From contig JABWBJ010000002.1 in NCBI GenBank assembly GCA_013360595.1, positions 1 through 39,603 on the forward strand: 39,603 bases of DNA. The letters run 5' to 3'. Each line of letters opens with the position of its first letter. The first letter of the stretch is position 1. Under the pieces are notes generated by a model. The model was not told where the DNA came from. It saw nothing but the letters and a program-made list of their open reading frames with translations, and ran no database searches. This DNA is from Gemmatimonadaceae bacterium. GTDB lineage: Bacteria > Gemmatimonadota > Gemmatimonadetes > Gemmatimonadales > Gemmatimonadaceae. This document shows positions 3,991-18,954 of the stretch, in pieces. The position numbers were made by a program, and so were the translations under genes.

Positions 3991-4019
3991 GTCACGCGGA
4001 GGCGCGGTGGGACGCGGAG
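3967..4019 (+). repeat. Direct repeat, left copy, flanking arr
   Basis: This 53-bp stretch covers the last codons and stop of the RND pump gene and the first codons of arr. It recurs at 4480-4531 with two mismatches and one missing base. The shared text begins GCGGAGCACGCGT and runs through GAGTCACGCGGAGGCGCGG. The extra T in this copy creates the GTG used as the arr start. Confidence 0.9.
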
Positions 4020-4465
4020 AGCCCAGCTGGAGCCCTGTTTCGCACGAGAACTGCCATGAGGTGCCTGGGCCCTTCTACCACGGCACCAGGGCTGAACTCC
4101 GTGTTGGTGACCTCATCACCACCGGGCATCGCTCTCACTTCGAGGGACGGGCCCTGAAGCACGTCTACTTCTCGGCCTTGGTCGAGCCCGCCATCTGGGG
4201 TGCCGAGCTGGCGATGTCGCTCTCGGGTCAGGTTGGCCGCGGGTTCATCTACATCGTCGACCCGACCGGGCCGTTCGAGGATGATCCAAACCTCACGAAC
4301 AAGCGATTTCCCGGGAATCCCACGCGGTCCTACCGCAGCACGGCACCGCTCCGGATCTGCGGGCCGGTGTCGGAGTGGGAGGGGCATTCGGCTGAGGTCC
4401 TGCAAGGCATGCTGGATGCCCTCGCGGACCTGAGGCGGAAGGGCATGGCGTTCGTGGACGAGTAG
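4007..4465 (+). CDS. arr: NAD(+)-rifampin ADP-ribosyltransferase (Arr)
   Basis: The 152-residue product closely follows Arr proteins along its whole length: GPFYHGTRAEL, GDLITTG, SHFE, LKHVYFSALVEPA, WGAELAMSLSG, GRGFIYIVDPTGPFEDDP and NLTNKRFPGNPT are hallmark segments. Arr transfers ADP-ribose from NAD+ to the C23 hydroxyl of rifamycins and so inactivates them. The His of FYHGT and the Asp-rich PTGPFEDDP loop, both important in the family, are intact. The best start is GTG at 4007, giving WSPVSHEN in register with the WIPISHDN-like N-terminus of Arr-2. No good ribosome binding site is seen. It sits 16 bp after the RND pump and is bracketed by a 52-53 bp direct repeat, which suggests insertion or duplication. 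Arr genes often occur as integron cassettes; here the attC array starts about 320 bp downstream but arr itself has no attC. Confidence 0.93.
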   Translation: MGRGEPSWSPVSHENCHEVPGPFYHGTRAELRVGDLITTGHRSHFEGRALKHVYFSALVEPAIWGAELAMSLSGQVGRGFIYIVDPTGPFEDDPNLTNKRFPGNPTRSYRSTAPLRICGPVSEWEGHSAEVLQGMLDALADLRRKGMAFVDE

Positions 4466-4787: not shown

Positions 4788-4794
4788 GTTAGAC
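4788..4794 (+). other. Integron core site GTTAGAC, left end of cassette A (attI or attC-derived)
   Basis: The heptamer GTTAGAC fits the GTTRRRY integron core consensus. Strand exchange takes place between G and TT. Its reverse complement GTCTAAC is exactly the R'' box of the attC at 9770, as required if 4789-9862 is one cassette. No clear R'' partner is found just upstream, so this could be the core of an attI or of a decayed attC. Confidence 0.7.
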
Positions 4795-4893
4795 GGCGGC
4801 GTCCCGACTGGAGCTTAGCTTGGCCTCACCGATTAACCTTGGAATGCCTGCGGGAGTGTTCGGGAAAAGCCCACGACTGCCCCTTTCTCCAAG

Positions 4894-5742
4894 ATGCATT
4901 CAGAATCTTCGGCGCCTCGACCAATCTTGCGTTGGGCGGGAAGCAAGCGTCGCCTCGCGCGAATCCTGTCGCCACACCTGCGTGCGCTCGGCTCGAACAC
5001 GTACTTCGAGCCGTTTGCTGGCTCTGCGTCACTCTTCCTGGCACTCGCGCCCAGCAAGGCGGTCCTGGGCGACATCAACTGCGAGCTCATTAATGCGTAC
5101 CGGATACTTCGCTCTGACCCGGTGGCACTTTGGTTGGCCGTGCGCAGTATCCCAAAGACCTCGCGCGAGTATTATGCCCTCCGCGCTCAAACGCCGGATG
5201 CGCTGCGGGCGTTTGACCGAGCCGCTCGTTTCATATATCTCAACAGGTGGTCATTCAACGGCGTTTATCGCACAGACCGTGCGGGGAGATTCAACGTGCC
5301 ACGCGGGAGCAGGACGGGCGCGATACCAGAACCGGAGGTGTTCGCAGCGGTTTCGGCTCTTCTCGGTAAAGCGGAGCTACAGTCGGCTGACTTTGCACAC
5401 ACGGTGAAGGCCGCAGGGCACGGCGACCTTGTGTACCTCGACCCGCCCTATCATTCGCCGACAAGAATGGCCCGGGGTGAGTATGGATACGATGCATTTC
5501 GAGTCGAAGACATGTCACGTCTTATCAAGCTCGCTCGGTCGCTGGATGGACGCGGCGTAAAGGTGTTGATCTCTTACCGATCCGCCGCCCCACTACGCCA
5601 ATTCCTCGGAGGATGGTACTTCCGCCGGGTCCCCGTGCGTCGCCAAGTATCCGGCAAGACAACAGCGCGCGTGTCGACAAGTGAGATCTTGGTCTCAAAC
5701 TGGCATCTGCCTCCGCTCCGATCGAACCGCGCCTACGCATGA
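4894..5742 (+). CDS. D12-class DNA N6-adenine methyltransferase (Dam-like)
   Basis: The 282-residue protein has the motif order of Dam/DpnM-type enzymes. ILRWAGSKRRL (residues 11-21) and YFEPFAGSASLF (37-48) form the S-adenosylmethionine site, LGDINCELINAY (58-69) follows, and the catalytic DPPY is in DLVYLDPPYHS (Asp183-Tyr186). It should transfer a methyl group to N6 of adenine in a short DNA target. The target sequence is unknown. It is the first gene of a four-gene operon and its stop overlaps the next start by 4 bp (ATGA). In that context it is more likely a self-marking or modification subunit than a housekeeping Dam. ATG 4894 is the start that keeps the full N-terminal motif; no strong ribosome binding site precedes it. 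No restriction endonuclease of a known family follows. Confidence 0.9.
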   Translation: MHSESSAPRPILRWAGSKRRLARILSPHLRALGSNTYFEPFAGSASLFLALAPSKAVLGDINCELINAYRILRSDPVALWLAVRSIPKTSREYYALRAQTPDALRAFDRAARFIYLNRWSFNGVYRTDRAGRFNVPRGSRTGAIPEPEVFAAVSALLGKAELQSADFAHTVKAAGHGDLVYLDPPYHSPTRMARGEYGYDAFRVEDMSRLIKLARSLDGRGVKVLISYRSAAPLRQFLGGWYFRRVPVRRQVSGKTTARVSTSEILVSNWHLPPLRSNRAYA

Positions 5743-6929
5743 TATCGATCGCGGTTGTAAGCGATCTTCACGCTGACCGGCGCGAGCATGCGGCCGCGGG
5801 CACGGTGCCAGTTGAGTCGCACCTAGATGTATCGATGCCTGAATCTCACGTGTCCCAACACCCGATTGCGGCATTGGAGAAGCTCATTGGGCAGGAAGGC
5901 CTCAGGGCGGACCTCCTGCTTTGCCCCGGAGACATCACTAATCGTGCCAAGCCCGATCCGCTGCAATACGCATGGCGACGCCTCCATGACATTGGTCGTG
6001 CACTCGGGGCACACCTCGTTGCAGGAACAGCTGGCAATCATGATCTGGATTCGAGATTCAACTACAACGATCATGACGCGAAGGGCATGGTTCAGGGACT
6101 TGTGCCTCTATTCCCCGTCGCCGATGAGACCCTCACCGACCGCTACTGGTCACGGCACTATGCGATCATTGAGCGACCAGATTATCGGCTTGTCCTGCTC
6201 AATTCAGCGGCGTACCACGGCGGCAACCCGGAGGAGATAGTGCACGGCCGCGTCTCACGCCGGACGCTCGACGGCCTCAGCGGGGCGCTCAGAACTTCAG
6301 GCGACGTTGCTGGGCGCATCAACATCCTTCTTTGTCACCATCACCCTGAGCGCCATCCTGCATTGGCATTGCCTGACTATGACGCCATGACGTTAGGTCC
6401 CGACTTACTCGCCCTCCTCGGTTCAGGAGAGTTCGGGCAGTGGCTGATCATTCACGGACACAAGCACAATCCCAGATTGACATACGCAGGGGGGACGGCG
6501 TCGGCGCCGGTCGTCTTTTCTGCGGGCAGCTTCTCAGCTGTTCTCTACCCGGAGTTGCAGAACCGAGTCCGTAATCAGTTCTACCTCCTTCATATCGACG
6601 CAAGGCACGTAGCGCAGTTTGGCCTTGTCGGTTCGGGTCAAGCTTGGGACTACGTCCCTGGGAATGGCTGGGTACCCGCCGGACAAGACTCCGGAATGCC
6701 CGACTCCTTTGGCTTCGGGTGCCGAATTGAACCTGCCTTATGGACTGAGCGACTTGCGGCTGCCGGTTCGAGCCTGCGCTCGTGGCAAGATGTGCTTAGA
6801 GACTATCCGGAGCTGGCCTTCGTGCTACCAGCTGATTTCGCGATGATCGAACGGCGTCTGTCAGAACGACATGGCGTGCTGATTACCAGAGTGAAGGGAC
6901 GTCCCCATCAGATTGGAAAGACACCATGA
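5739..6929 (+). CDS. Calcineurin-like metallophosphoesterase
   Basis: All metal-binding motifs of the calcineurin-like phosphoesterase superfamily are visible: SDLH (Asp9, His11), GD (Gly64-Asp65), GNHD (99-102), a His cluster in LLCHHHPERHP (200-202) and GHKH (240-243). The fold therefore covers about residues 1-280. Residues 280-396 are an additional C-terminal region that I do not recognise; it includes VLRDYPELAFVLPADF. Enzymes of this superfamily hydrolyse phosphomono- or diesters, including nucleic acids (Mre11/SbcD) and cyclic nucleotides, so a nuclease or signalling role is possible. The gene overlaps both neighbours by 4 bp (ATGA), which points to translational coupling with the methylase and the ATPase. 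The actual substrate is unknown. Confidence 0.88.
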   Translation: MISIAVVSDLHADRREHAAAGTVPVESHLDVSMPESHVSQHPIAALEKLIGQEGLRADLLLCPGDITNRAKPDPLQYAWRRLHDIGRALGAHLVAGTAGNHDLDSRFNYNDHDAKGMVQGLVPLFPVADETLTDRYWSRHYAIIERPDYRLVLLNSAAYHGGNPEEIVHGRVSRRTLDGLSGALRTSGDVAGRINILLCHHHPERHPALALPDYDAMTLGPDLLALLGSGEFGQWLIIHGHKHNPRLTYAGGTASAPVVFSAGSFSAVLYPELQNRVRNQFYLLHIDARHVAQFGLVGSGQAWDYVPGNGWVPAGQDSGMPDSFGFGCRIEPALWTERLAAAGSSLRSWQDVLRDYPELAFVLPADFAMIERRLSERHGVLITRVKGRPHQIGKTP

Positions 6930-8791
6930 GCTCTGCCGACGCCACTGATTCATTTAATGCGCGGAACCTGAGTCCGGCTGAAGTGGCGCGCACGTTCGTA
7001 CCGCCCGCAGAGTTTACCAGCCTTGTTCAGCAGGCCAACGCAATTGTGGTTGGACCGCGAGGGAGCGGCAAAACTACGCTTCTGAAGATGCTGCTGCAGG
7101 AGGCACTTGAGACTTGGGATCACGCGCTCGCCGATACCTTGGCTTCACGCGTGACGTACACCACGGCATTTGTAGGGACGGATCGGCGATGGAGTGCGCA
7201 GTTGGCCAGTCTGGGAGAAAGTCGTTTGACCAGCGAGAGCCGCGCCCGCTATGCATTGGCCGCCTACACGACGCAAGTACTTCGTTCTGTTACGAACGCG
7301 ATGATCGGTCGTACCGGTCTGGCACCTGGCAACTCAAGTCCGGTGAACAGAGAGGTCGGTCGGGTATCTTTGAGTGTCGATGCCGAAGCCGACCTGACCG
7401 GACTTCTCTCGAGCGCGTGGGGGCTGAAGCCGCGACTCCCAAGTCTGATAGCTGTACGGCAAGCCCTCACCCTACGGCTGCTAGAAATAAAGTGGCTCGC
7501 CAGTCAAGCCCCGCTAGAAGATCTGGACCCAACCAGGCGAGCGTGGTTAACGCTTCCCTTCTTGGACGCCGTTGTCACGGCCGTTGAAGGTTTCAATGAC
7601 TTGGTGGGCGAGCCGCAGCGCCGGTGGGCACTTGCGCTTGATGAGCTCGAGATCGCACCCCCAGCAGTGCTCGATGAGCTCGCCACTGCAATCCGCGCAT
7701 CGGACGAGATCATCTTGTTCAAGCTGGCGTTGAGTCCCGGGCGACACCTCGGAGGTCACCTCGCGACGGACCTCGCCGCATCACCTGGTCACGACTACTC
7801 CGAAATCCGCCTGTGGTATCCAGACCGGCGCGACGGAGAGGCATTCTGCCGTGATCTTTGGCGCGCCGCTCTCGCTCGCCGCGGACTGCCGGATTTGGAT
7901 CCCAGATCAGTGCTAGGACCATCGTACTTTGAAGGTGCTCCCGGACCTAACGGAAATGAATATGAGCCAGGTTCGAAGTGGGCCATACAGTTTCAGGAAC
8001 TCGCGGCAGATGACCAGACATTTCGTGAGTATTTGAGGAATAAGCGGATTGATGTCACGAAGCTGGATGCCATGCGCGACCCGGAGAGAGCCGCAGATGT
8101 TAGGAAGATCGCGCCACTGCTACCATTGCGTGCGTTTTATCGTCAACCAGATCGCGACAGGCGTCGGGGCCGGTTGCGCAGCCGCAAGTCGCCTGCCCTC
8201 TACACGGGTGCAGCGTGCATGTTTGCGATAACAGAGGCCAACCCCCGTTGGTTCAAGAACCTGTTCGATGGGCTCCTCGACGTGATTGTAGACAGCCGGA
8301 TCGATGCTGAAGTGCAGGCTAGGTCTATAGGAGTAACATCGCAGCGTTTCGCGGCGCTTCTTAACACCGTGCCCGCGCCAACAATCCACCACCGAGGTAC
8401 CGCGCGTGGCGTGCTCGGTGTCATCCGCGAGATAGCCCGAAGCATTCAGGCCGAACATGTGACAGACGCCTTCAAGCCAGAACCCCGTGCCACGTTCACC
8501 GTGCCGGCCGATGCGGACCAGACGCTGGTCGACATTCTTCAGGAAGCCGCAAACTGGGGCGGCATCATCTTCATTCCCGATACTCAGGACCAAGGGCTCA
8601 TTGGCAGTCTGCGAAAGAAGCGCTTTCGCATTTCATACTTGCTCGCTCCCCTGTACGGGCTGCCAGTGCGACTGGGAAAACCACTAAGCCTTAAACCGAT
8701 TTTCTCGCGCCGTTCGGCAGAGGTCCCGACTCTATTCGAGGGTCAGCAACATGATCAGACTGATCCGGCCAACGATAACGCATCGTCCTGA
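6926..8791 (+). CDS. P-loop ATPase, possibly ORC/Cdc6-like AAA, of the four-gene operon
   Basis: The 621-residue protein begins NARNLSPAEVARTFVPPAEF, followed by a Walker A motif GPRGSGKT (43-50) and a Walker B motif LALDELE (Asp239, Glu240). The layout, with the P-loop close to the N-terminus and a stretch of about 190 residues before Walker B, fits ATPases described as ORC/Cdc6-like in accessory operons; that family name is from memory and not certain. The C-terminal half (350-621) has no motif I recognise, but contains a basic segment (RQPDRDRRRGRLRSRKS) that could contact nucleic acid. It probably senses or remodels DNA and controls the partner proteins. The start overlaps the phosphoesterase stop by 4 bp and the end overlaps the next gene by 41 bp. 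Confidence 0.8.
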   Translation: MSSADATDSFNARNLSPAEVARTFVPPAEFTSLVQQANAIVVGPRGSGKTTLLKMLLQEALETWDHALADTLASRVTYTTAFVGTDRRWSAQLASLGESRLTSESRARYALAAYTTQVLRSVTNAMIGRTGLAPGNSSPVNREVGRVSLSVDAEADLTGLLSSAWGLKPRLPSLIAVRQALTLRLLEIKWLASQAPLEDLDPTRRAWLTLPFLDAVVTAVEGFNDLVGEPQRRWALALDELEIAPPAVLDELATAIRASDEIILFKLALSPGRHLGGHLATDLAASPGHDYSEIRLWYPDRRDGEAFCRDLWRAALARRGLPDLDPRSVLGPSYFEGAPGPNGNEYEPGSKWAIQFQELAADDQTFREYLRNKRIDVTKLDAMRDPERAADVRKIAPLLPLRAFYRQPDRDRRRGRLRSRKSPALYTGAACMFAITEANPRWFKNLFDGLLDVIVDSRIDAEVQARSIGVTSQRFAALLNTVPAPTIHHRGTARGVLGVIREIARSIQAEHVTDAFKPEPRATFTVPADADQTLVDILQEAANWGGIIFIPDTQDQGLIGSLRKKRFRISYLLAPLYGLPVRLGKPLSLKPIFSRRSAEVPTLFEGQQHDQTDPANDNASS

Positions 8792-9743
8792 AGCGGAGGA
8801 TCGTTCCTACGACCTCATGATTTGCGCCCTTGGCTACGAGCGCCGCTCTCGAGCAGCAGCTGAGCGTCTCCGCCCAGGAGTCGTTCGTGGTGTCGCACCG
8901 GCGTTCGACGCGCAACAAGTCCTGAGTTTCGAGGAGAACAAGAACTGGTTTGCATCGGCAGGTTTCGAAACACCGACTGTGACTGACGCAGATTTCCACG
9001 CGTGGGTCACCGCTCTCGTTCACTCGGTCGGCGACGATCGTTCAGGCGCCCTTCGCCTTGTGGTTGATATCTCGAGTTTCTCGCGGTACCGCATTGCTTG
9101 CCTCGTTGACGTCCTGCGACGGCACCCCCTGGAAACGCCAATTGTAGTTGACTTCATCTACAGCCTTGCGGAGTACACCGCGCCGACCGAGGAGGATAGT
9201 CCAAACGTCCACGTCGGGCCGGTATTGGATTCTTTCGCGGGATGGAGTCGTGACCCAGACGATAGGGTGAGCGCCATTGTCGGCCTTGGTTACGAAACAG
9301 ATCGGGCGGTCGGCGCCGTGGAGCATGTCCAAGCGTCTGAAGTTTGGGTATTGTCGCCACTCTCACCGATAGCGGAGTACCTAACACCGCTTGACGAGGC
9401 CAACCGCAGCTTGCTCGACATAACGGCAGACAGCCACCTGCTTCGCTACCCCGTTCTTGATCCGTTGTACACGCTTTCGATAGTCGAAGGACTCGCTGCT
9501 CGATCCTTGTTGTCGGGCAATGCAGTAGTCTTCCCGTTTGGGCCCAAAATCTTTGCACTTGTCAGTCTACTATCCGCCACGGTACATCCAGATCTAGCTG
9601 TCTGGCGAATAAGCCCGGGTGTGCACGCACCTCCGGTCGAGCGCGCGCCTTCGGAATACTGGTGCGAGCTTCGCGCCGTCTGGGACCCCGTTACGGCTAT
9701 CGATTGGGAGGCCGAGGCAGCTGCCATCGCCTCTTGGTACTGA
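8751..9743 (+). CDS. Unknown protein with two GYExxR-type repeats, last gene of the operon
   Basis: I do not recognise this 330-residue family. Two similar segments are visible: YDLMICALGYERRSRAAAERL near residue 20 and SAIVGLGYETDRAVGAVEHV near residue 180. Each has a hydrophobic strand, a GYE turn and a helix with Arg, suggesting duplicated Rossmann-like domains. Between them lies LRLVVDISSFSRYRIACLVDVL. No signal peptide or membrane segment is evident, so it is probably cytoplasmic. The start ATG 8751 lies 41 bp inside the ATPase gene, which implies coupled translation. As the last and least typical gene of a methylase-phosphoesterase-ATPase operon it could be a sensor or an effector. The attC of the cassette begins 27 bp after the stop codon. 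Confidence 0.75.
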   Translation: MIRLIRPTITHRPEAEDRSYDLMICALGYERRSRAAAERLRPGVVRGVAPAFDAQQVLSFEENKNWFASAGFETPTVTDADFHAWVTALVHSVGDDRSGALRLVVDISSFSRYRIACLVDVLRRHPLETPIVVDFIYSLAEYTAPTEEDSPNVHVGPVLDSFAGWSRDPDDRVSAIVGLGYETDRAVGAVEHVQASEVWVLSPLSPIAEYLTPLDEANRSLLDITADSHLLRYPVLDPLYTLSIVEGLAARSLLSGNAVVFPFGPKIFALVSLLSATVHPDLAVWRISPGVHAPPVERAPSEYWCELRAVWDPVTAIDWEAEAAAIASWY

Positions 9744-9769
9744 ATGCAGCGCGGCGCGATGTCCTCGCC

Positions 9770-9868
9770 GTCTAACGATGCGATGAAGCTGACGAGCGGG
9801 CTTCGACATGCCTCGCCTGCGGCTCGGCTTCTTTTTGATCCGCTCGCAGCTTATCGCCGGCGTTAGGC
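9770..9868 (+). other. attC site 1 (end of cassette A)
   Basis: R'' is GTCTAAC (9770-9776) and R' is GTTAGGC (9862-9868). The L'' segment GATGAAGCTGACGAGCGG pairs with CCGCTCGCAGCTTATC, leaving two unpaired bases on one strand, the extrahelical bases typical of attC. The site is 99 bp long. R'' is complementary to the core at 4788, which ties this attC to the cassette starting there. Confidence 0.93.
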
Positions 9869-9905
9869 AGTAACGCACTGCCCTTGTCTGCAATCCCCCT
9901 GCGAC

Positions 9906-10163
9906 ATGAAGCGACGGCCCGAGTGGTGGGAGTGGGAGCTCGAAATCAGTCCTCATCTCCTGAAGCGAATGGCTGATCGCGACTTCACAGAACTGGATGT
10001 TCGCAGTATGCTCCAAAGGGCCGTACGGGTCCGACCCGACGTCGAGCCCGGCCGGTGGATCGTCGGAACGCACCGTCGCCGCCGGCGTTGGGAAGTCATC
10101 GTAGAGCCCGATCCGGACGCCCGCGTTCTGACTGTCATCACAGCTTACCCCGTGTCACCATGA
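9906..10163 (+). CDS. DUF4258-type small protein (toxin-like)
   Basis: The 85-residue product has the pattern of DUF4258 proteins: a helix SPHLLKRMADRDFTELDVRSML near the N-terminus followed by strands ending in WEVIVEPDPDARVLTVITAYPV. DUF4258 members are small proteins, often compared with RelE/HicA-like toxins, and usually paired with a DUF2283 protein. That is the case here: the stop codon overlaps the next start by 4 bp (ATGA). It is the first gene of cassette B, 37 bp downstream of attC 1. Function as a toxin is inferred, not shown. Confidence 0.75.
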   Translation: MKRRPEWWEWELEISPHLLKRMADRDFTELDVRSMLQRAVRVRPDVEPGRWIVGTHRRRRRWEVIVEPDPDARVLTVITAYPVSP

Positions 10164-10438
10164 CCGCCGCGAATGGGCCGTATCTCGAGGTCACCTACCG
10201 TCAGGGACGGCCGCTGGCGGCGTACCTGTATCTGCCCCGCCGGGCGACGGACCGGAGTGCGCGTACGCGCCGGATAGCCCCAGGCCTGGTCATCGACCTG
10301 ACGGCTAGAGGCCGGGCCATCGGGATCGAGATTACGGCTCCGTCCAAAGTGACGATTACGGCGTTGAACCGTGCGTTGCGTAGCGTGGGTGCCGCGCCGA
10401 TGACGCGAGCCGATCTTGCCCCGCTCAGGGCGGCGTAG
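10160..10438 (+). CDS. DUF2283-type small protein, partner of the DUF4258 gene
   Basis: The 92-residue product begins MTAANGPYLEVTYRQGRPLA. It has the DUF2283 pattern: a short strand pair, then APGLVIDLTARGRAIGIEITAPSKVT, in which a protein of this family usually reads as pG-hxhDhxxxGxhhGIEI. It is placed in tandem with the DUF4258 gene with a 4-bp overlap, a common pairing thought to be a toxin-antitoxin or regulatory module. ATG 10160 is preferred over upstream in-frame codons, which lie inside the DUF4258 gene. The cassette's attC R'' box starts 10 bp after the stop. Confidence 0.72.
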   Translation: MTAANGPYLEVTYRQGRPLAAYLYLPRRATDRSARTRRIAPGLVIDLTARGRAIGIEITAPSKVTITALNRALRSVGAAPMTRADLAPLRAA

Positions 10439-10448
10439 TGGGCGTTCT

Positions 10449-10468
10449 GCCTAACAGCGTTTGCAGCT
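10449..10468 (+). other. attC site 2, left half (interrupted by IS)
   Basis: The R'' box GCCTAAC (10449-10455) and the outer part of L'' (TTTGCAGCT) are here; the rest of the attC lies at 12025-12112. Joining 10468 to 12025 restores TTTGCAGCT+GTCGGCGAC, which pairs with GTCGCCGCAGCTGAAA with two extrahelical bases (G and T). The rebuilt site is 108 bp, the same length as attC 3. Confidence 0.9.
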
Positions 10469-10796
10469 TCTATGAGGCTGATCTTGTCAAGAGCGGAGTA
10501 ATATGCGTACGGAAGGGACACGGCGGCGAGCCGCGTTCGTGATTGCACTGAAATCACCCGGTGCTTCGCGCGCACTCGGTCGAGAACGGGCTGGACGCTG
10601 AGCGTCCGCCACCAGCTTCTATCCGTGTCGAACCATTCGGTTCGAGGCACCAGAGACGACAGACGCGGGAGCGCGATGAGCCGTGGTGCGCGCGGCCCCT
10701 TCTGACCAGGCGGTCCGTGCTCCAGGAAAGCCGAGCACGCGACCCGCTGCAAACGCGGGCACAACGCGACATCACGGGGTGACGACGGACCCGGCG
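10469..10796 (-). ncRNA. Candidate seekRNA/bridge-RNA region of the IS
   Basis: This is the non-coding end downstream of the transposase. It has two good hairpins: GGACGC/GCGTCC at 10593-10607 and TCGAACC-ATTC-GGTTCGA at 10628-10645. It also holds GCTGCAAACGC at 10746-10756, the reverse complement of the target at 10457-10467, which ends one base before the insertion junction. A second match, CAGCTTCTAT at 10613-10622, copies the left target-IS junction at 10464-10473. Both are expected of guide segments in an RNA read on the minus strand. RNA ends cannot be placed from the sequence. Confidence 0.6.
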
Positions 10797-11951
10797 TCAG
10801 GTCGCCGCGCCGGGCTTGAGTTGCGCGCCGGTCGGGACCAACCCGGTCTCGAGGTAGCGCCAGAGTGCGATCAAGAGTTTGCGCGCCAGCGCGACAATCC
10901 CGAGCCGCCGCTGCCGGCTCCCGCCGGCGGCGAATCGCTCGGTGAACCAGCGGCTGAGGGCGCTGTCCGGTTGGTGATGGAGCCAGCTCCAAGCGAGTTC
11001 GATGGCGAGACCGCGGACGTGCACATTGCCAGCCTTGCTGATGCCGAGGTCCCGCGTCAGGCGACCGCTAAGCTGGCGGGTGGCCGTGAGGCCGGCCAAG
11101 GCCCCCACTTCGCGACGGTTCCGGAAGCCGCGCCAAGCGAAGAACTCCATGGTATAGAGCCAAGCGCTCACTTCGCCGATGCCGCGCAGCGCGAGGAGTT
11201 GCCGCACTTGGCGCACGGCGGGATCGGGCGACGTAGCGAGGAGGGTGCGGCGTTCGGCGACCAGGCTGCGCTGTTGCTGCAGCACGGTCGCGAGGCGATC
11301 CCACTCGCGGTCCAGCCGAGCGCGGAGGTACGGCGGTAGTGGCGTGCCATCCCAGCGACGCAGCCGGACGAGCTGCGTCGGCAGGTGGCGCATTGTCGTC
11401 AGGCGGATGCCCTGGGCGACGAGGAGCGCCTTGATCCGGCTCCGGTGCCGGGTGCGCTCTCGGGTGAGGAGGGCGAGTTCCCGGTGGAGGTGGCGCCAGT
11501 CCTCGGCGGTCTCGCTGGGGACGTTGACTGGGTGCCAGCTGCGGCGATCGCCAGCGACGGCGCGGAGCTGGAGGCTCAGGAGCGCGGTCGCGTCGAGGCG
11601 ATCGGACTTTGCGCGCCGATGCCGGCGATCGACTTCAATGCTGGCGGAGTCGATGATGGTGTTCGTGATGCCGCGCGCGGTGAGCGCGCGATGGAGCCAG
11701 AAGCCGTCGCGGCCAGCTTCGTAACAGCTTACGACGAGCGCGTTCGGCTCGAGATTGAAGTGGGCCTTGGCGCGGGCGATCTCCTGATCGAGCGTGGTGA
11801 GGTCGCGCGCGGGGCACATGCGGAGGCGTGGCGGCGCCCCGGTGGTGGTCGTGAAGGCGAGAGCCCAGCGGAGGTTGCCGAGGTCGAAGGCGAGATGTAG
11901 CGTGGGGACAGCCACGGGCGCGAGCACGGAACGGGTCGTCATGGTAGGCAT
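10797..11951 (-). CDS. IS110/IS1111-family DEDD transposase
   Basis: Protein of 384 residues with the two domains of IS110 transposases. The N-terminal RuvC-like DEDD domain shows LAFDLGN (first Asp), VVSCYEAGRDGFW (Glu) and RRAKSDRLDATALL (paired Asp). A central coiled region follows (HRELALLTRERTRHRSRIKALL). The C-terminal Transposase_20 domain shows LLALRGIGEVSAW, FRNRREVGALAGLTATRQLSG and RDLGISKAGNVHVRGL, where the Ser of ISKAGN fits the active serine. ATG at 11951 is preferred because AGGAGA lies about 6 bases upstream; an in-frame GTG at 11954 and ATG at 11942 are alternatives. The gene is intact and opposite in direction to the cassette genes. Confidence 0.93.
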   Translation of the reverse strand: MPTMTTRSVLAPVAVPTLHLAFDLGNLRWALAFTTTTGAPPRLRMCPARDLTTLDQEIARAKAHFNLEPNALVVSCYEAGRDGFWLHRALTARGITNTIIDSASIEVDRRHRRAKSDRLDATALLSLQLRAVAGDRRSWHPVNVPSETAEDWRHLHRELALLTRERTRHRSRIKALLVAQGIRLTTMRHLPTQLVRLRRWDGTPLPPYLRARLDREWDRLATVLQQQRSLVAERRTLLATSPDPAVRQVRQLLALRGIGEVSAWLYTMEFFAWRGFRNRREVGALAGLTATRQLSGRLTRDLGISKAGNVHVRGLAIELAWSWLHHQPDSALSRWFTERFAAGGSRQRRLGIVALARKLLIALWRYLETGLVPTGAQLKPGAAT

Positions 11952-11983
11952 CACTTCTCCTGGAAGAGAGAGTGTATACAGTG

Positions 11984-12005
11984 GCGGCCCGTTCTTCCGG
12001 GCCGC
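11984..12005 (-). promoter_or_regulatory. Strong hairpin upstream of the transposase gene
   Basis: Perfect 8-bp stem GCGGCCCG / CGGGCCGC with a 6-base loop, located 30-55 bp upstream of the transposase start inside the IS. It could block read-in transcription or translation of the transposase from outside, or form part of the end recognised by the transposase. No U-tract follows on the minus strand, so it is not a typical terminator in that direction. Confidence 0.5.
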
Positions 12006-12024
12006 GAGTGCCTACATAGTTTCT

Positions 12025-12112
12025 GTCGGCGACAGTGGATGCGCCGAGGCGCGCTACGCGCGTCCACGGCGCGAAGTGTTAGAGTCGCCGCAGCTGAAAC
12101 CAGGCGTTAGGC
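12025..12112 (+). other. attC site 2, right half (end of cassette B)
   Basis: This contains the inner part of L'' (GTCGGCGAC), the GC-rich variable loop, L' (GTCGCCGCAGCTGAAA) and the R' core GTTAGGC (12106-12112). It is the partner of the left half at 10449-10468. R'' GCCTAAC is complementary to GTTAGGC at the start of cassette B. Confidence 0.9.
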
Positions 12113-12369
12113 CGCAGTTCTGCCCCGACGTCGTGACGAAACAGAGGTAGCCCACCGGATTCGGGAAGCACGTCCGACTTCTCCACTGCCTGCTAGGCCA
12201 GGTTTGGCAAGGACTTATGTGATGTGGGCGTCCACAAGCGACGCCGGAACCACTTGCCCGGCACGCGCTTGCGCTGCCGTTCGCCTAACGCCCCTACGAG
12301 CGCCGCTTGCGCGCCGACTTGGTCAGTCTTACCTTGGCGCTTTCATACAAACGCTGCTGGGGACTCAGT
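12113..12369 (+). other. Gap with a vestigial attC R'' box
   Basis: No gene is supported in this stretch between the attC 2 core and the subtilisin gene. GCCTAAC at 12283-12289 is a full R'' box, complementary to the core at 12106, but no L'/R' partner follows within the usual attC length. It may be the left remnant of an attC lost in a deletion that fused a small empty cassette of about 180 bp to the next one. Confidence 0.5.
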
Positions 12370-14031
12370 ATGGCCGCTCGCCTCTCACTGTCCAGCCTCG
12401 TCGTACTCATCTCCGTCCTTTCGTCTTGCGTCGATCGGTCCGAGATAGTCGCCCCGAACCCGGCGTCGAAAGTCGACGCAGCGGTGAGCGAAGCGCGAGG
12501 ACTTCAGGAACGGCGCCGCGACGACAACATAGTCCCCGGATCATACATCGTCCTTCTTAAGCGTCGTGCAGGGCCCGCACGGGCGCTTATTCAGAGGTTG
12601 GCAACGCGCCACGGTGGGACGATCGGGAGCCGCTGGGAGAATGGACGGATGCGCGGCTTCACAATTCACAACATTGCCAAGGCGACCTATTTGGCGATTG
12701 CGCGTGAACCTGACGTCCTAGTCATTGAACCTGAACGTCGTGTAGCGTTCACAAGCGTGCAGTCGTTGCCGTCTGCTTCGGCACCAAATGATACGCTCTG
12801 GTACTTGGATCGCATCGACAAGTACGGGGCTGCAGAATACGACGCCCAGTACGACTATGGGAGCAGCGGCAACACTGGAAACGGCGTGCACATCTACATT
12901 GTCGACTCCGGCATTCGCGGTGGTCACGCTGAGTTCACGGGGCGCATTGGGAATGGCTATTGCCACGTGTCTCACTATTGGGGCTGGCTATTGCTCTACA
13001 CGGACACAGGATGCAGCCCGACCAATGACCCCATTGACGAGGGGCACGGCACGGGAATGGCAGGGCTCGCCGCCGGAACTACGCTAGGAGTCGCTAAGCA
13101 CGCCACAATTCACTCGGTCAGGATCAACGATGACCAAGGAGGGAGTTATTGCGGAGACGTGGCCGCAGGCCTAGTCTGGGTTAGGCAGAACGCGATATTG
13201 CCGGCCGTGGTGAATCTCAGCATCGATGCCGACTGCGCTAGCGTCCGTGGAGCAGCACAGGATCTGATTACTTCCGGAATACAGCTCGTTAAAGCGGCTG
13301 GCAATCTTGAGGTCAATGCGAACACAAGAATCATCAACCAGATTCCTGGTCTCATCGTAGTCGGAGGCACGAGCCGCAGTGATGCTCGGTGGAGCGCGGA
13401 GGGAAACGTGGGAAGCTCTTGGGGGAGTCTTGTCAACATCTCTGCCCCCGGCGATGGGATGTTCATGGCGACCGGCCAGAGCAACAGCGGGGTTACAGCC
13501 TACATGTATGAGGGCACGTCGAACTCGGCCGCGCTGGTTACGGGGGTTGTGGCGCGTTTGCTACAGCTGAAACCGAGCCTAACACTTGCCACGCTGCAGA
13601 CCGCTCTCTACACGCAAGCAAGTGCCGTCACCATTACGGACGGCAACGGAATGGCAAACCGCATCTTGTTTTCGGGCGCTTCAGTCTCGCCGGATTCATA
13701 CGTACCGAGCCTGCCAGGAGCACCGAATCTCTCTCTGCAGATTGAGGGATACAGTCAAGTTCGGCCCAGCGCCGGCTGCTACTTCTATGCGAATGCGTCT
13801 GGTGGAGCCGGTACCTATTCCTACGTCTGGAAGGTTGGTGACACCGAGATCGGAGGGGACGACGAGTATCTCTACTATCAGAACGCCCTAGCTTCTGGAT
13901 CTTCGTTCACCGTGAGCGTTCGTATCTTCGACGGGGTTTCGAGCAAAGAAGCGACCTTCGATGTCGCGGTGTCGTCAAGTTCTGGTGAGTGCTACGCGGC
14001 GGATGAGGACTTCGCATTAGAGCGGTTCTGA
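12370..14031 (+). CDS. Subtilisin-like serine protease (peptidase S8), lipoprotein
   Basis: The 553-residue product starts MAARLSLSSLVVLISVLSSC; Cys20 after LSS is a lipobox, so it should be a secreted, lipid-anchored protein. An inhibitor-I9-type propeptide follows (VPGSYIVLLKRRAGPA to VLVIEPERRVAF, about residues 55-130). The S8 domain resembles the proteinase-K branch and has an intact catalytic triad: Asp179 in YIVDSGIR, His226 in EGHGTGMAG, Ser384 in GTSNSAALVTG. The oxyanion Asn is in AAGN. A C-terminal Ig/PKD-like region (about 445-545, SGGAGTYSYVWKVGDTEI) precedes an acidic tail. It probably degrades extracellular or periplasmic protein. It lies in cassette C; large exported enzymes are unusual cassette cargo. 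ATG 12370 is chosen for the signal peptide. Confidence 0.9.
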   Translation: MAARLSLSSLVVLISVLSSCVDRSEIVAPNPASKVDAAVSEARGLQERRRDDNIVPGSYIVLLKRRAGPARALIQRLATRHGGTIGSRWENGRMRGFTIHNIAKATYLAIAREPDVLVIEPERRVAFTSVQSLPSASAPNDTLWYLDRIDKYGAAEYDAQYDYGSSGNTGNGVHIYIVDSGIRGGHAEFTGRIGNGYCHVSHYWGWLLLYTDTGCSPTNDPIDEGHGTGMAGLAAGTTLGVAKHATIHSVRINDDQGGSYCGDVAAGLVWVRQNAILPAVVNLSIDADCASVRGAAQDLITSGIQLVKAAGNLEVNANTRIINQIPGLIVVGGTSRSDARWSAEGNVGSSWGSLVNISAPGDGMFMATGQSNSGVTAYMYEGTSNSAALVTGVVARLLQLKPSLTLATLQTALYTQASAVTITDGNGMANRILFSGASVSPDSYVPSLPGAPNLSLQIEGYSQVRPSAGCYFYANASGGAGTYSYVWKVGDTEIGGDDEYLYYQNALASGSSFTVSVRIFDGVSSKEATFDVAVSSSSGECYAADEDFALERF

Positions 14032-14835: not shown

Positions 14836-14943
14836 GCCTAACGACAATTGCTGCTGACGGCGCTTGACGGAAGCGGCTGGGCTCGCTGCGCTCGCCTGTC
14901 GCACAAGTCGTGATGCGCCGCAGCAGAATGACACGCGTTAGGC
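14836..14943 (+). other. attC site 3 (end of cassette C)
   Basis: R'' is GCCTAAC (14836-14842) and R' is GTTAGGC (14937-14943). ATTGCTGCTGACGGCGC pairs with GCGCCGCAGCAGAAT, leaving G and A extrahelical. The loop has the direct repeat GCTCGC-TGC-GCTCGC, which also occurs in attC 4. Length 108 bp. Confidence 0.93.
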
Positions 14944-14972: not shown

Positions 14973-17900
14973 ATGAGTATCCATTGCCTCTCTATGCTTT
15001 CAAGGCTAACGCGATTCAACAAGACAACGACTTTCGCCCGCGGCGCCATCACCGTGCTAGGTAGCATGCTTCTGTTTCCTATCGCGCTTGCTGCCCAGAG
15101 CAAGCCATCGGGTAACAGTCGCATCGTACCCGTTCGTACTGGAACAGATCTGGCGTCATTCGCGTCCCCTGATGGACGGTTCATCGCAATCATTCTGATG
15201 GGTCAGACGTGGCTTGTGCCCAGCACGGGCGGAACCGCCCGAGCCCTCACGGACGTCATCAGCGAACCCCGTGTTGACGTAGCATTGGCTTGGGCACCCG
15301 ACGGAAGGCGACTGTCAGTCCTGTCGAATACGACGATGTTCGGCCCGCGAACCGCGCTCGACGTCGTCGACGTGGAGACGGGCACGTCGATGCGAGTGGC
15401 GTCGGCACCGAATATCGTCTCAGCAATGTGGTCGCACGACGGCAGCCGGCTCTTGGTGAGTCTTTTCGAAGAGGACAGCATCAGCTTGACTGCGTATCGG
15501 CCTGTACCGAACGCGCGCGGCGAGCGTCTGTCTCGCTTGCCGGGTGCGCCGGTGTCCCTGCGCAGGTCGGCAACTGGCGAAATGGCCTACGCTACGGTCG
15601 ATGGACGACGTACGCTAGGGTCGCTCGGTGGACTCCGAGAGTACCTGACAGCATCAGGGCAGGTTCGGCCATTGTCCAGTGACTCCATCACCGCCAGTCT
15701 GCCCGCCTATAGCCCAGATGGGGAGCTGGTCGCGTTCATCGCGGAGGCCTCCGGAGAGCGAGAGGTCTGGGTGCGGTCGCTTCGGACCGGAGCGGAACGG
15801 CCCGTCACCTCCGGAGTGGACGAGATCTACCTCGCACCGGTCAGTTGGCTTAGCCCATCGCGCGTCTTGTTCACAGCCCACGGCCAGCTGCAAGTCGCAT
15901 CGCTCGATCGTTCAGTCATTGACACCATTCCGTTCGTCGCAAATGTCCCGGTGACGCGCGCTGAGAACCTGCGCGCACTGCGGCTTCCCACACCCGGCGA
16001 TCGCAGGAAAGTACAGGCCCTCGTTGATCCTCAGCTGTCTCCAGACGGTCGGACCGTCGTCTTCGCTGCCCTCGGTGACCTCTGGTGTGCGCCGGTAGAC
16101 GGAGGCGCCGTTCGACGACTCACGAACTCTCCTATCGATGAGCGCCGTCCGGTGTGGTCTCCGGATGGCGCGCGTATCGCTTACTACGCCACGCGCGAGA
16201 ACGGAGGCACGCAGTTGCGAGTGCTCTCGCTGGCGCACCCGGATAGCAGTCGCGCGATCCCGGTCGATTCGTCGGTTGCCTTTGCTCGCCCTCGGATCGT
16301 CTGGTCACCGGATAGCAGGGCGATTGCGTTTGCCAATGGACGACTGATCCAGCGCCTGGACCTGGATGATGGCGCAACCCGAACGATCGCCGTCTCACCC
16401 GTCCCATACGTCGAGGCCGTCGTTGCGTGGAGTCCGCAGGACTCCGTCGCCTACATAGCTTCGCGATTGACCGGAAGCACCCTGAACCCAGGCGGCTGGC
16501 AGAATGTTCTATGGGTCGTATCGTCAGACAGCGGCGTCGCGCGGACTCTCGACGTCCCGAGGGAACGATTGTCGCGTGCGGGTATTTCCGGCCAGCTTCG
16601 ACGCGTTGCGTACAACTACCGCGATATTGGACATCACGCGCTCCTCGCCGATACCACGACTGCGAACCGCATCGCCGATCCATCGCCGCGTTCATTCTCG
16701 TGGTCAGCGGATGGCAGTCGGCTCCTCTACAGCTCCAATGGACGTCTTCGCCTACTCGAAGTCCATCGTGGCCGCGCTCAGGATGTCAGGATTGATCTCG
16801 ATTATCGTGTATCACCGGCCCCGAGGCCGATTCAGATACGCAACGTCCGAATCATCGATGGAACGGGAAGGCAGCGCTCAGCGCCTAGCGACGTGCTAAT
16901 CGCGAACGGTCGCATCAGGTCGATGTCGCTCACGGGACGCCGACCCGTAGCTCCTGATGTCGACGTCATTGACGGGACAGGGCTGACTTTGTTACCGGGA
17001 TTGATCGACAGTCACGTCCACTCCTTCGGCTGGAGTGGATTCGCGTCGAGCGTCTACTTTGGTGTGCTCGCGGCGCGTGATCCTGGCGACGTGACCGAGT
17101 GGCTCCGGAGTCAGCGTGAGCGAGCGGCGGCCGGGCTCTCACTGGCGCCCCGCCTCTTCTATGCCGGTCGCGTCATGGACGACTGGGGCCAGCCCTTCGC
17201 AGACGGACGATTTGTTGATGTCCGCAGCGCTGAGCGGGTTGATGAGGCGGTGGGATCCATCGCGGCCGACGAGGCCGATTTCATCAAGCCGTACTTCTGG
17301 GATCCGGTCCAGGATGCACATGTGATTGACGCTGCTCATCGCCGCGGCATCCGAGTCGGCTCGCACTTCTCGTTGCTCAGTTCACTCGCGCGCGGTTTGG
17401 ATTACAAGGAGCACGCGACCACCTACAGTCTGGATTGGACAAGCACCTATCAGGACGATTTGATCGCAACTCTGCGAGCAGCGAACACCTGTGTGGTACC
17501 CACGCTTCAGCTCTATGCCACGAGTCGAGGCCAGACCTCGACCGTTGTACCTCACGATCCCTCCATCTTCGCCGACACGCTGCTTGCCGAGTTGTACCGG
17601 CCAAGGGATCTCGCGCTCGCCCGAGCCCTTGCGCAAGCAAACATGACCGAAGCGATGCGAGCGCTTTGGATGCCGCGAGAACGGCGCGACTACGAGAGCA
17701 TGCGACGGCTCGCCGCGGCGGGAGTAAGGGTGACCATCGGCACCGACGCTACGGAAACATCGGGGCCGTGGCGAGACATGGGAGTACATCTGGAGATGGA
17801 GCGTTTCGTTCGCGGTGTCGGGATGACCCCGCTCGAGGCGATTCGCGCGGCGACACTGATCGCCGCACAATGCCTCGGCGTAGATGGCGACCTGGGATCG

Positions 17901-18053
17901 GTGGAAGTTGGGAAAGTGGCGGACCTGCTGTTGGTCGAAGGTGATCCATCATCCGAAATCCGAGACACGCGTCGCATCCGAAGCGTTATCCTGGGTGGGG
18001 CAGTTTGGGAGCGAGCCGAGATTCTCGCTGCCATCCGCGGGGAGCGCCCGTGA
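14973..18053 (+). CDS. Secreted amidohydrolase with N-terminal beta-propeller
   Basis: The 1026-residue product has a signal peptide (ITVLGSMLLFPIALAAQ). A long region of TolB/PD40-type beta-propeller repeats covers about residues 60-610: SPDGRFIAI, WAPDGRRL, SPDGRTVVFAA, WSPDGARIAYY, WSPDSRAIAF, WSADGSRLLY. A metal-dependent amidohydrolase domain follows from about 615 (VLIANGRIRSM, LPGLIDSHVHS). Metal ligands are visible: His681 and His683 (HVH), a Lys in DFIKPYFWD, a His in VGSHFSL, and Asp in TIGTDAT. It should hydrolyse amide or peptide-like bonds outside the cytoplasm; the substrate is unknown. Such propeller-amidohydrolase fusions are common in Gemmatimonadota-like genomes. Here the gene alone forms cassette D (3.25 kb). 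ATG 14973 or 14994 is the start; both keep the signal peptide. Confidence 0.9.
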   Translation: MSIHCLSMLSRLTRFNKTTTFARGAITVLGSMLLFPIALAAQSKPSGNSRIVPVRTGTDLASFASPDGRFIAIILMGQTWLVPSTGGTARALTDVISEPRVDVALAWAPDGRRLSVLSNTTMFGPRTALDVVDVETGTSMRVASAPNIVSAMWSHDGSRLLVSLFEEDSISLTAYRPVPNARGERLSRLPGAPVSLRRSATGEMAYATVDGRRTLGSLGGLREYLTASGQVRPLSSDSITASLPAYSPDGELVAFIAEASGEREVWVRSLRTGAERPVTSGVDEIYLAPVSWLSPSRVLFTAHGQLQVASLDRSVIDTIPFVANVPVTRAENLRALRLPTPGDRRKVQALVDPQLSPDGRTVVFAALGDLWCAPVDGGAVRRLTNSPIDERRPVWSPDGARIAYYATRENGGTQLRVLSLAHPDSSRAIPVDSSVAFARPRIVWSPDSRAIAFANGRLIQRLDLDDGATRTIAVSPVPYVEAVVAWSPQDSVAYIASRLTGSTLNPGGWQNVLWVVSSDSGVARTLDVPRERLSRAGISGQLRRVAYNYRDIGHHALLADTTTANRIADPSPRSFSWSADGSRLLYSSNGRLRLLEVHRGRAQDVRIDLDYRVSPAPRPIQIRNVRIIDGTGRQRSAPSDVLIANGRIRSMSLTGRRPVAPDVDVIDGTGLTLLPGLIDSHVHSFGWSGFASSVYFGVLAARDPGDVTEWLRSQRERAAAGLSLAPRLFYAGRVMDDWGQPFADGRFVDVRSAERVDEAVGSIAADEADFIKPYFWDPVQDAHVIDAAHRRGIRVGSHFSLLSSLARGLDYKEHATTYSLDWTSTYQDDLIATLRAANTCVVPTLQLYATSRGQTSTVVPHDPSIFADTLLAELYRPRDLALARALAQANMTEAMRALWMPRERRDYESMRRLAAAGVRVTIGTDATETSGPWRDMGVHLEMERFVRGVGMTPLEAIRAATLIAAQCLGVDGDLGSVEVGKVADLLLVEGDPSSEIRDTRRIRSVILGGAVWERAEILAAIRGERP

Positions 18054-18100: not shown

Positions 18101-18196
18101 GCCTAACGAGGCACTGAAGCTGCCGAGCGGTATGCGGTGCGCTCGCTGCGCTCGCGATTGGTTTGGTCCGCTCGGAGCTTATTGCGGGCGTTATGC
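18101..18196 (+). other. attC site 4 (end of cassette D)
   Basis: R'' is GCCTAAC (18101-18107) and R' is GTTATGC (18190-18196), a variant core. TGAAGCTGCCGAGCGG pairs with CCGCTCGGAGCTTA, with two G bases extrahelical. R'' matches the start of cassette D (GTTAGGC at 14937) while R' belongs to the following cassette. Confidence 0.93.
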
Positions 18197-18259: not shown

Positions 18260-18288
18260 TTGACAGTGTATACGTAATCTTGTATATT
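18260..18288 (+). promoter_or_regulatory. Sigma-70 promoter of the toxin-antitoxin cassette, with operator-like repeat
   Basis: A perfect -35 box TTGACA (18260-18265) is followed by 17 bp and the -10 box TATATT (18283-18288). The spacer and -10 contain an inverted repeat TATAC-N8-GTATA (18269-18286), a likely operator for the encoded antitoxin. Transcription should start around 18295, only a base or so before the toxin GTG. Confidence 0.8.
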
Positions 18289-18295
18289 GGGTGGC

Positions 18296-18628
18296 GTGGC
18301 CAAGGACGTGAGGTGGGTCGGCTCCTCGCTCGACGATCAGCGGGCGCTCCCGCCTGCGGTGCGGCGGGAACTCGGGTTTGACCTGCGGCGCGTCCAACAG
18401 GGCACGCTGCCTCGTGACTGGAAGCCGATCAGGGCGGTCGGCCCGGGCGTGATGGAGATACGCGTCCATCTCGGCGGAGCTTTCCGGCTGATGTACGTCG
18501 CGAAGTTCGCCGAGGCCGTCTACGTGCTACACGTGTTTCAGAAGAAGACGCAGAAGACATCAGAGCTCGATCTCGCCGTTGCCCGCCGACGCCTCGCGCT
18601 CGTTCGTCGCACTCGGGAGGAGAAGTAG
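18296..18628 (+). CDS. higB: HigB/RelE-like toxin (phage Gp49-like family)
   Basis: About 110 residues beginning MAKDVRWVGSSLDDQRALPP. The fold signature of the Gp49-like/HigB group is seen: PAVRRELGFDLRRVQQG, WKPIRAVGPGVMEIRV, FRLMYVAKFAEAVYVLHVFQKKTQKT, then a basic helix (LAVARRRLALVRR). Such toxins are usually ribosome-dependent mRNA interferases. The upstream in-frame TTG at 18287 overlaps the -10 box and cannot be used, so GTG 18296 is the best start; the transcript would then be leaderless or nearly so. The antitoxin gene follows after 2 bp. It is the first gene of cassette E, and stabilising toxin-antitoxin cassettes of this kind are common in integrons. Confidence 0.88.
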   Translation: MAKDVRWVGSSLDDQRALPPAVRRELGFDLRRVQQGTLPRDWKPIRAVGPGVMEIRVHLGGAFRLMYVAKFAEAVYVLHVFQKKTQKTSELDLAVARRRLALVRRTREEK

Positions 18629-18630
18629 CC

Positions 18631-18954
18631 ATGGCCAAGCGCGCCGCACGCCCAAAGGAGGAACGCATCCACCGGTCTTCCGGTAACGTGTTCACCGATC
18701 TCGGCTTCCCGCCGGAAGAAGCCGCGCATCTCCTGATTCGCTCGGATTTGCTGATCCAGATCGAGCGCCTTCTGAAGGAGCGCGGGCTGACGCAGGCCAA
18801 GGCGGCCAAACTGCTGGGGGTCTCGCAGCCGCGCGTGAGCGATCTTGTGAGAGGTCGCATCGAATTGTTTAGCATCGACACCCTCGTGGATATGCTGGCC
18901 CGCCTCGGCGTTTCGGTGACGCTCCGAACGAGGCGGTCGCGCCGCGTTGCATAA
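18631..18954 (+). CDS. higA: HigA/XRE-type antitoxin
   Basis: The 107-residue product has a helix-turn-helix domain of the XRE type: LLIQIERLLKERGLTQAKAA, KLLGVSQPRVSDLVRGRIE, then FSIDTLVDMLARLGVSVT. The N-terminal part (HRSSGNVFTDLGFPPEEA) is the usual feature of antitoxins paired with Gp49-like toxins. It should neutralise the toxin and repress the promoter at 18260 through the inverted repeat there. A GGAGGAGAAG-type ribosome binding site lies at the end of the toxin gene just before ATG 18631. The TAA stop codon (18952-18954) lies inside the R'' box of the cassette's attC, so gene and recombination site overlap. Confidence 0.9.
   Translation: MAKRAARPKEERIHRSSGNVFTDLGFPPEEAAHLLIRSDLLIQIERLLKERGLTQAKAAKLLGVSQPRVSDLVRGRIELFSIDTLVDMLARLGVSVTLRTRRSRRVA

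Follow-up and report, generated by a model that had tools for sequence, protein, structure and literature searches.

The stretch of DNA analysed here (the window) comprises 39,603 nucleotides of contig JABWBJ010000002.1 from a Gemmatimonadota metagenome-assembled genome (GCA_013360595.1, assembly completeness 72%). One integron gene cassette in the window carries four genes, which encode a Dam-family adenine methylase (g1), a calcineurin-like phosphoesterase (g2), an ORC/CDC6-like ATPase (g3) and a protein with two CARF-like domains (g4). Comparison of related loci showed that g1 is replaceable by the chromosomal Dam of the host. Judged from the gene types and their context, the cassette on balance probably encodes a methylation-gated defence system, in which a phosphodiesterase effector would be driven by ATP and regulated by the CARF protein.

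The four genes are intact and lie on the + strand at 4894-9743, between a core site at 4788 and an attC site at 9770-9868. An earlier model reading of the letters (the original prediction) had described four + strand genes overlapping by 4, 4 and 41 bp, and the open reading frames were exactly so for g1/g2, g2/g3 and g3/g4, respectively.

4894..5742, + strand: g1, Dam-family (D12) N6-adenine DNA methylase, 282 amino acids (PF02086, TIGR00571)
5739..6929, + strand: g2, calcineurin-like phosphoesterase with a C-terminal winged helix-turn-helix (wHTH), 396 amino acids; proposed effector (PF00149, PF24408)
6926..8791, + strand: g3, ORC/CDC6-like P-loop ATPase, 621 amino acids (PF24389)
8751..9743, + strand: g4, protein with two CARF-like Rossmann domains, 330 amino acids; proposed ligand sensor or switch (PADLOC CARF6)

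Conservation of the operon

When 84,980 species genomes were scanned once with the g3 ATPase profile, 78 loci were obtained, about 75 of them true relatives. Wherever a locus was complete or of sufficient length for a judgement, g2, g3 and g4 were adjacent and in the same order, and in most loci a Dam-family methylase was located directly upstream. The loci span Pseudomonadota, Bacteroidota, Actinomycetota, Acidobacteriota, Planctomycetota, Verrucomicrobiota and Gemmatimonadota. The g2/g3 and g3/g4 junctions were within 60 bp in 75/76, with the identical 4-bp overlap in 40 and 25, respectively. The distance matrices of all four proteins correlated at 0.55-0.75, compared with at most 0.16 for the permutation null. 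Of 395 Vibrio-order genomes, six had both g3 and g4, and none had one of the two alone. The majority of the loci were on chromosomal contigs. All four genes were present at three plasmid loci (Cupriavidus, Sinorhizobium and Methylobacterium), and a fourth, on a Pseudoalteromonas plasmid, had g2-g4 with a different first gene. The synteny anticipated in the original prediction was thus observed across phyla and on plasmids. The loci were also inspected for a constant fifth gene, but none was seen, and no relatives were found in viral contigs (IMG/VR) and phage records. The gene set is a conserved system and not a local assembly.

On the Pseudoalteromonas plasmid (L007:4889-6733), the place of the methylase is taken by a 614-amino-acid protein with no Pfam family, whose C-terminal stretch looked like a PD-(D/E)XK nuclease by eye.

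Exchange of the methylase for host Dam

Where g2-g3-g4 (the triad) lacked a methylase and there was room for one upstream, 11/11 hosts had a true chromosomal Dam (NF008152, 333-447 bits), compared with 0/28 hosts where g1 was directly upstream (Fisher P = 6e-10, before allowing for kinship). Loci that end at a contig end upstream (L016, L056, L059, L061, L062 and L078) were left out of this count. In the g1-bearing genomes the Dam profile found g1 itself, at about 80-155 bits, and otherwise at most weaker matches. The first eight g1-less loci in Dam-bearing genomes were all from Gammaproteobacteria. After the Dam hypothesis had been formed, new genomes were drawn from the Vibrio order (395) and the Halomonas order (392). 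The Vibrio-order draw gave three new triads (G579, G654 and G668), all with Dam and all without g1, and the Halomonas-order draw gave one (G946), with g1 present and Dam absent; all four agree with the hypothesis.

The supported branches of the g3 tree force four independent changes. Teredinibacter, Zhongshania and Halomonas, with g1, are closely contrasted there with Vibrio and Pseudoalteromonas, without it, and a second close contrast sets Cellvibrio (g1) against Aliivibrio and Pseudoalteromonas rubra (no g1). In three loci from Sphingomonadaceae/Phyllobacteriaceae (L022-L024), whose hosts have no Dam, g1 was replaced by a different D12 methylase, and in four others from hosts without E. coli-type Dam (L043, L068, L085 and L088) a D12 methylase was nearby and not directly upstream. 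Hence, the triad is accompanied by an adenine methylase, a part that E. coli-type Dam can play in place of g1. The role of self-marking component that the original prediction gave to the methylase agrees with this pattern, in which loci in Dam-bearing hosts lack g1 and another adenine methylase has once taken its place.

Since g1 swaps with E. coli-type Dam, a GATC methylase, N6-adenine methylation of GATC is most likely the self mark read by the system. Since Dam-less hosts, with one exception discussed below (L019), keep an adenine methylase at the locus, the mark seems to be required and not merely tolerated. A likely recognition mark is thereby named from sequence alone for an uncharacterised, cross-phylum operon, and it can be tested by comparing dam+ and dam- E. 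coli. We know of no earlier report of such a system depending on host Dam.

The exchange also argues indirectly for a GATC specificity of g1 itself. The protein scored 133.6 bits with PF02086 (D12) and 180.5 bits with TIGR00571, both above the cut-off, and its DPPY motif is intact and kept across the family. Its nearest solved relatives are DpnM (2dpm) and E. coli Dam. The positions of EcoDam N120 and R124 were kept in 61/61 g1 homologues and that of P134 in 60/61; in E. coli Dam these three residues serve as DNA contacts. In the window's own genome, as far as the 72%-complete assembly covers it, no Dam was found apart from g1.

Domains of the triad proteins

The g2 protein matched Metallophos (PF00149) with 37.7 bits, and its metal-ligand set is complete, with D9, H11, D65, N100, H241 and H243 kept in 76/76. 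The C-terminal wHTH family PF24408 (wHTH-Calcineurin_assc) was matched by 60/68 g2 homologues; the match of the window g2 itself was 23.5, below the gathering score of 27. In the PADLOC profile search g2 had no match. The structure model of g2 (pLDDT 94.4) was closest in fold to phosphodiesterases of the Lmo2642, Rv0805, GpdQ and SMPDL3A type, and Mre11 appeared at rank 27 and below, so that DNA cleavage and nucleotide depletion are both possible activities.

The g3 protein matched PF24389 ('ORC-CDC6-like') over its full length with 332 bits (profile positions 4-571 of 571). Walker A residues G43, R45, G46, G48, K49 and T50 were kept in 78/78 rows, and Walker B residues D239 and E240 in the 77/77 rows with letters there. 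The D12, calcineurin-like and Walker A and B motifs are therefore as intact as originally claimed, with DPPY and the g2 ligands kept and the Walker residues near-invariant. The matches of g3 to PADLOC mad8 and NCBIfam MAD3 extend over the P-loop alone.

The g4 protein had been placed in no known family by the original prediction, and this did not hold: it matched the PADLOC CARF6 model with 220 bits, and CARF6 was matched by 69/69 homologues. The AlphaFold2 model of g4 (pLDDT 92.1) has two Rossmann-type halves. In the first, D106-x-S108-x-x-x-R112 directly follows strand 4 (101-106), and D106 and S108 were each kept in 76/76 relatives and R112 in 72/76. The CARF signature is [DN]X[ST]XXX[RK] after strand 4 of the Rossmann fold (PMC4012209), and g4 bears it. 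Among solved CARF proteins, g4 gave single-domain matches only, to Cam1 and Csm6, with probabilities up to 1.0, a TMt of 0.54-0.60 for Cam1 and a large root mean square deviation. The g4 profile found no match among PDB sequences. Full-length Foldseek matches to transporters and dehydrogenases were rejected as generic Rossmann likeness (TM < 0.3).

Proposed mechanism and alternatives

In the mechanism that we propose, g1 would methylate adenine of the host DNA at the Dam-type site GATC, and the ORC/CDC6-like ATPase g3 together with the winged-helix part of g2 would act on DNA without this mark. The double CARF protein g4 may bind a nucleotide-type ligand and switch the complex, and the phosphodiesterase g2 would then be released to cut phosphodiester bonds in invader DNA or in nucleotides. 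Where the host has Dam, g1 would be unnecessary and would be lost. We tentatively suggest, as a possibility that we put at a little under even, that this is an immune system which borrows host Dam methylation as its self mark and brings its own GATC methylase only into Dam-less hosts, with an ORC-like ATPase as reader and a CARF switch coupled to the phosphodiesterase effector. If so, self recognition through methylation would be tied to an origin-recognition-type ATPase and a CARF sensor, and a single integron cassette could mobilise a whole defence module of four genes.

Several observations weigh against this proposal. One Pyrinomonadaceae locus (L019) has neither g1 nor a close Dam in its host; another Dam-family methylase is encoded elsewhere in that genome (190 bits), and this was the only exception found. 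The Dam hosts are mostly of one order, leaving about four independent contrasts. The position of EcoDam K9 is R in 53/61 g1 proteins and that of Y138 is variable, so the specificity of g1 may not be exactly GATC. The best 25 PADLOC matches of genes flanking the loci included no cyclase or CRISPR component that would make a CARF ligand. Finally, the immediate neighbours were defence genes in only part of the loci; of the co-occurrence in defence islands that the original prediction looked for, the part concerning the genes themselves stood, whereas defence islands in the strict sense were only weakly borne out.

The effector may instead act on nucleotides in an abortive response, which we consider unlikely, though still worth weighing. 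The ATPase complex would sense infection through modified or unmodified DNA, g2 would hydrolyse nucleotides or a signalling nucleotide, and growth would stop with the phage DNA uncut, methylation merely licensing self DNA. The fold of g2, with cyclic-nucleotide and other phosphodiesterases (Rv0805, SMPDL3A) as closer neighbours than Mre11, suits such a role, as do the CARF nature of g4 and the membership of the g2 C-terminal domain in Pfam's calcineurin-associated wHTH family. However, calcineurin-like enzymes are promiscuous, so the fold rank does not settle the substrate, and a wHTH of the DNA-binding type on g2 and an ORC-like ATPase partner suit a DNA substrate.

The exchange with Dam might also have arisen since a second GATC methylase is harmful in Dam-positive hosts, disturbing mismatch repair and replication control, and not since Dam serves the system; the methylase would then be an accessory. 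The identical pattern of presence and absence is predicted by this explanation, but Dam-less hosts keep the adenine methylase of the locus, be it directly upstream (28), in another position (four loci) or as a different enzyme (L022-L024), with only L019 deviating, and we regard it as improbable. Least probable of all is a plasmid- or element-maintenance module that kills once the methylase is lost: a methylase with a methylation-sensitive killer would be addictive, and plasmid and integron occurrence agrees with this, but most loci are chromosomal and the methylase is dispensable in Dam-positive hosts, where addiction based on g1 is impossible.

One Gemmatimonadota relative (L012:186-8549) adjoins what appears by eye to be another defence operon, with a GHKL/MORC-like ATPase, a Z1-type protein and a cytosine methylase.

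Relation to known systems

Type II restriction-modification systems with a Dam-family methylase (e.g., DpnII, methylase DpnM, PDB 2dpm) resemble the proposed system in having such a methylase beside mark-dependent genes, for which another GATC methylase could supply the mark. In contrast to the DpnII type, profile searches found no restriction-endonuclease family domain in the four genes, which places them outside classical restriction-modification; a calcineurin-like phosphoesterase, an ORC/CDC6-like ATPase and a double CARF protein are present instead. The families of g2 and g3 (PF24408 and PF24389) are those of calcineurin-type nucleotide-targeting conflict systems. With the CARF6 clade (PADLOC-DB PDLC01915/01918), g4 shares its profile match and the CARF signature, but its gene lies apart from CRISPR, among those for the methylase, the phosphoesterase and the ATPase of the operon, and no effector is fused to it. 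MADS, BREX and DISARM likewise combine a methylase, an ATPase and effector genes in one operon, whereas their proteins gave no full-length match.

The four-gene set was not found as a defined system in PADLOC/NCBIfam, where matches to DS9 and DS41 were far below the cut-off, and in a search of the available literature the operon as a whole was neither described nor tested. A survey by the Aravind group (NAR 2023) is said to have proposed nucleotide-degrading calcineurin-type effectors in immune systems and may already list this gene set. Pfam and PADLOC already list the components among conflict-system families, and the novelty is the Dam exchange. Accordingly, the claim of a new defence system or variant stands in that no defined system is matched in full, but not in that its kind is wholly new. 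Rare co-occurrence of the genes, a full match to a described system and pseudogenes had been named as grounds for abandoning the original prediction; none was found, and g2-g3-g4 are conserved, the four proteins correlate in their distances, and the g2 metal ligands and g3 Walker residues are practically invariant. Overall, the interpretation given there is partly supported.

Cassette boundaries and the surrounding array

4789..9862, + strand: integron gene cassette, recombination point to recombination point (G|TTAGAC at 4788, G|TTAGGC at 9862)
4788..4794, + strand: 5' core site GTTAGAC, the left cassette boundary; no attC hairpin to the left of 4788
9770..9868, + strand: attC of the cassette itself (R'' GTCTAAC, R' GTTAGGC, hairpin)

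The original prediction that the operon forms one cassette from start to end was confirmed. The 5' core GTTAGAC at 4788 is exactly complementary to R'' GTCTAAC at 9770, and it is the sole GTTRRRY on the + strand of a 430-bp intergenic stretch; the chance of an exact 7-mer in this stretch is about 0.03. The bottom-strand hairpin of the attC has an energy of -26.2 kcal/mol (z = -3.85), and 0/200 shuffles were as good. With recombination at G|TT, the cassette extends over 4789-9862. It thus has a 3' attC with complementary R''/R' and a hairpin, and a 5' core matching its own R''.

Further attC sites were located at 14836-14943 and 18101-18196, and an additional one is split by an IS110-family element (R'' GCCTAAC at 10449, R' GTTAGGC at 12106); together, these sites indicate a cassette array. 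The search for attC sites found none to the left of 4788. An integron integrase was not found in the 72%-complete assembly, where the matches were below the family cut-off and Xer-like, the best one resembling XerD, and a complete integron, with an integrase within the same element, was not seen. Even so, the locus counts as a cassette array, in which an integrase was not detected. In a congener (G140) both flanks are kept and unrelated DNA takes the place of 3991-31098, so the whole 27-kb stretch is variable. This comparison gave no clean empty site, because 3991-31098 has no counterpart in G140.

Other genes were noted in and beside the array. Directly to its left is an Arr-type rifampin ADP-ribosyltransferase gene (4007-4465), whose own attC was not found. 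The next cassette after the operon (9863-10438) encodes DUF4258 and DUF2283 proteins, a toxin-antitoxin-like pair. Between the halves of the split attC (10449-12112) lies an IS110-family transposase gene (10797-11954, minus strand), as in IS1111-attC elements. The array also holds an S8 subtilase (12307-14031) and a 1026-amino-acid beta-propeller amidohydrolase (14973-18053), which are unusually large cassette cargo. Immediately after the last attC, a short open reading frame is followed by an HTH_37 regulator (18287-18954), and the two resemble a HigBA toxin-antitoxin pair.

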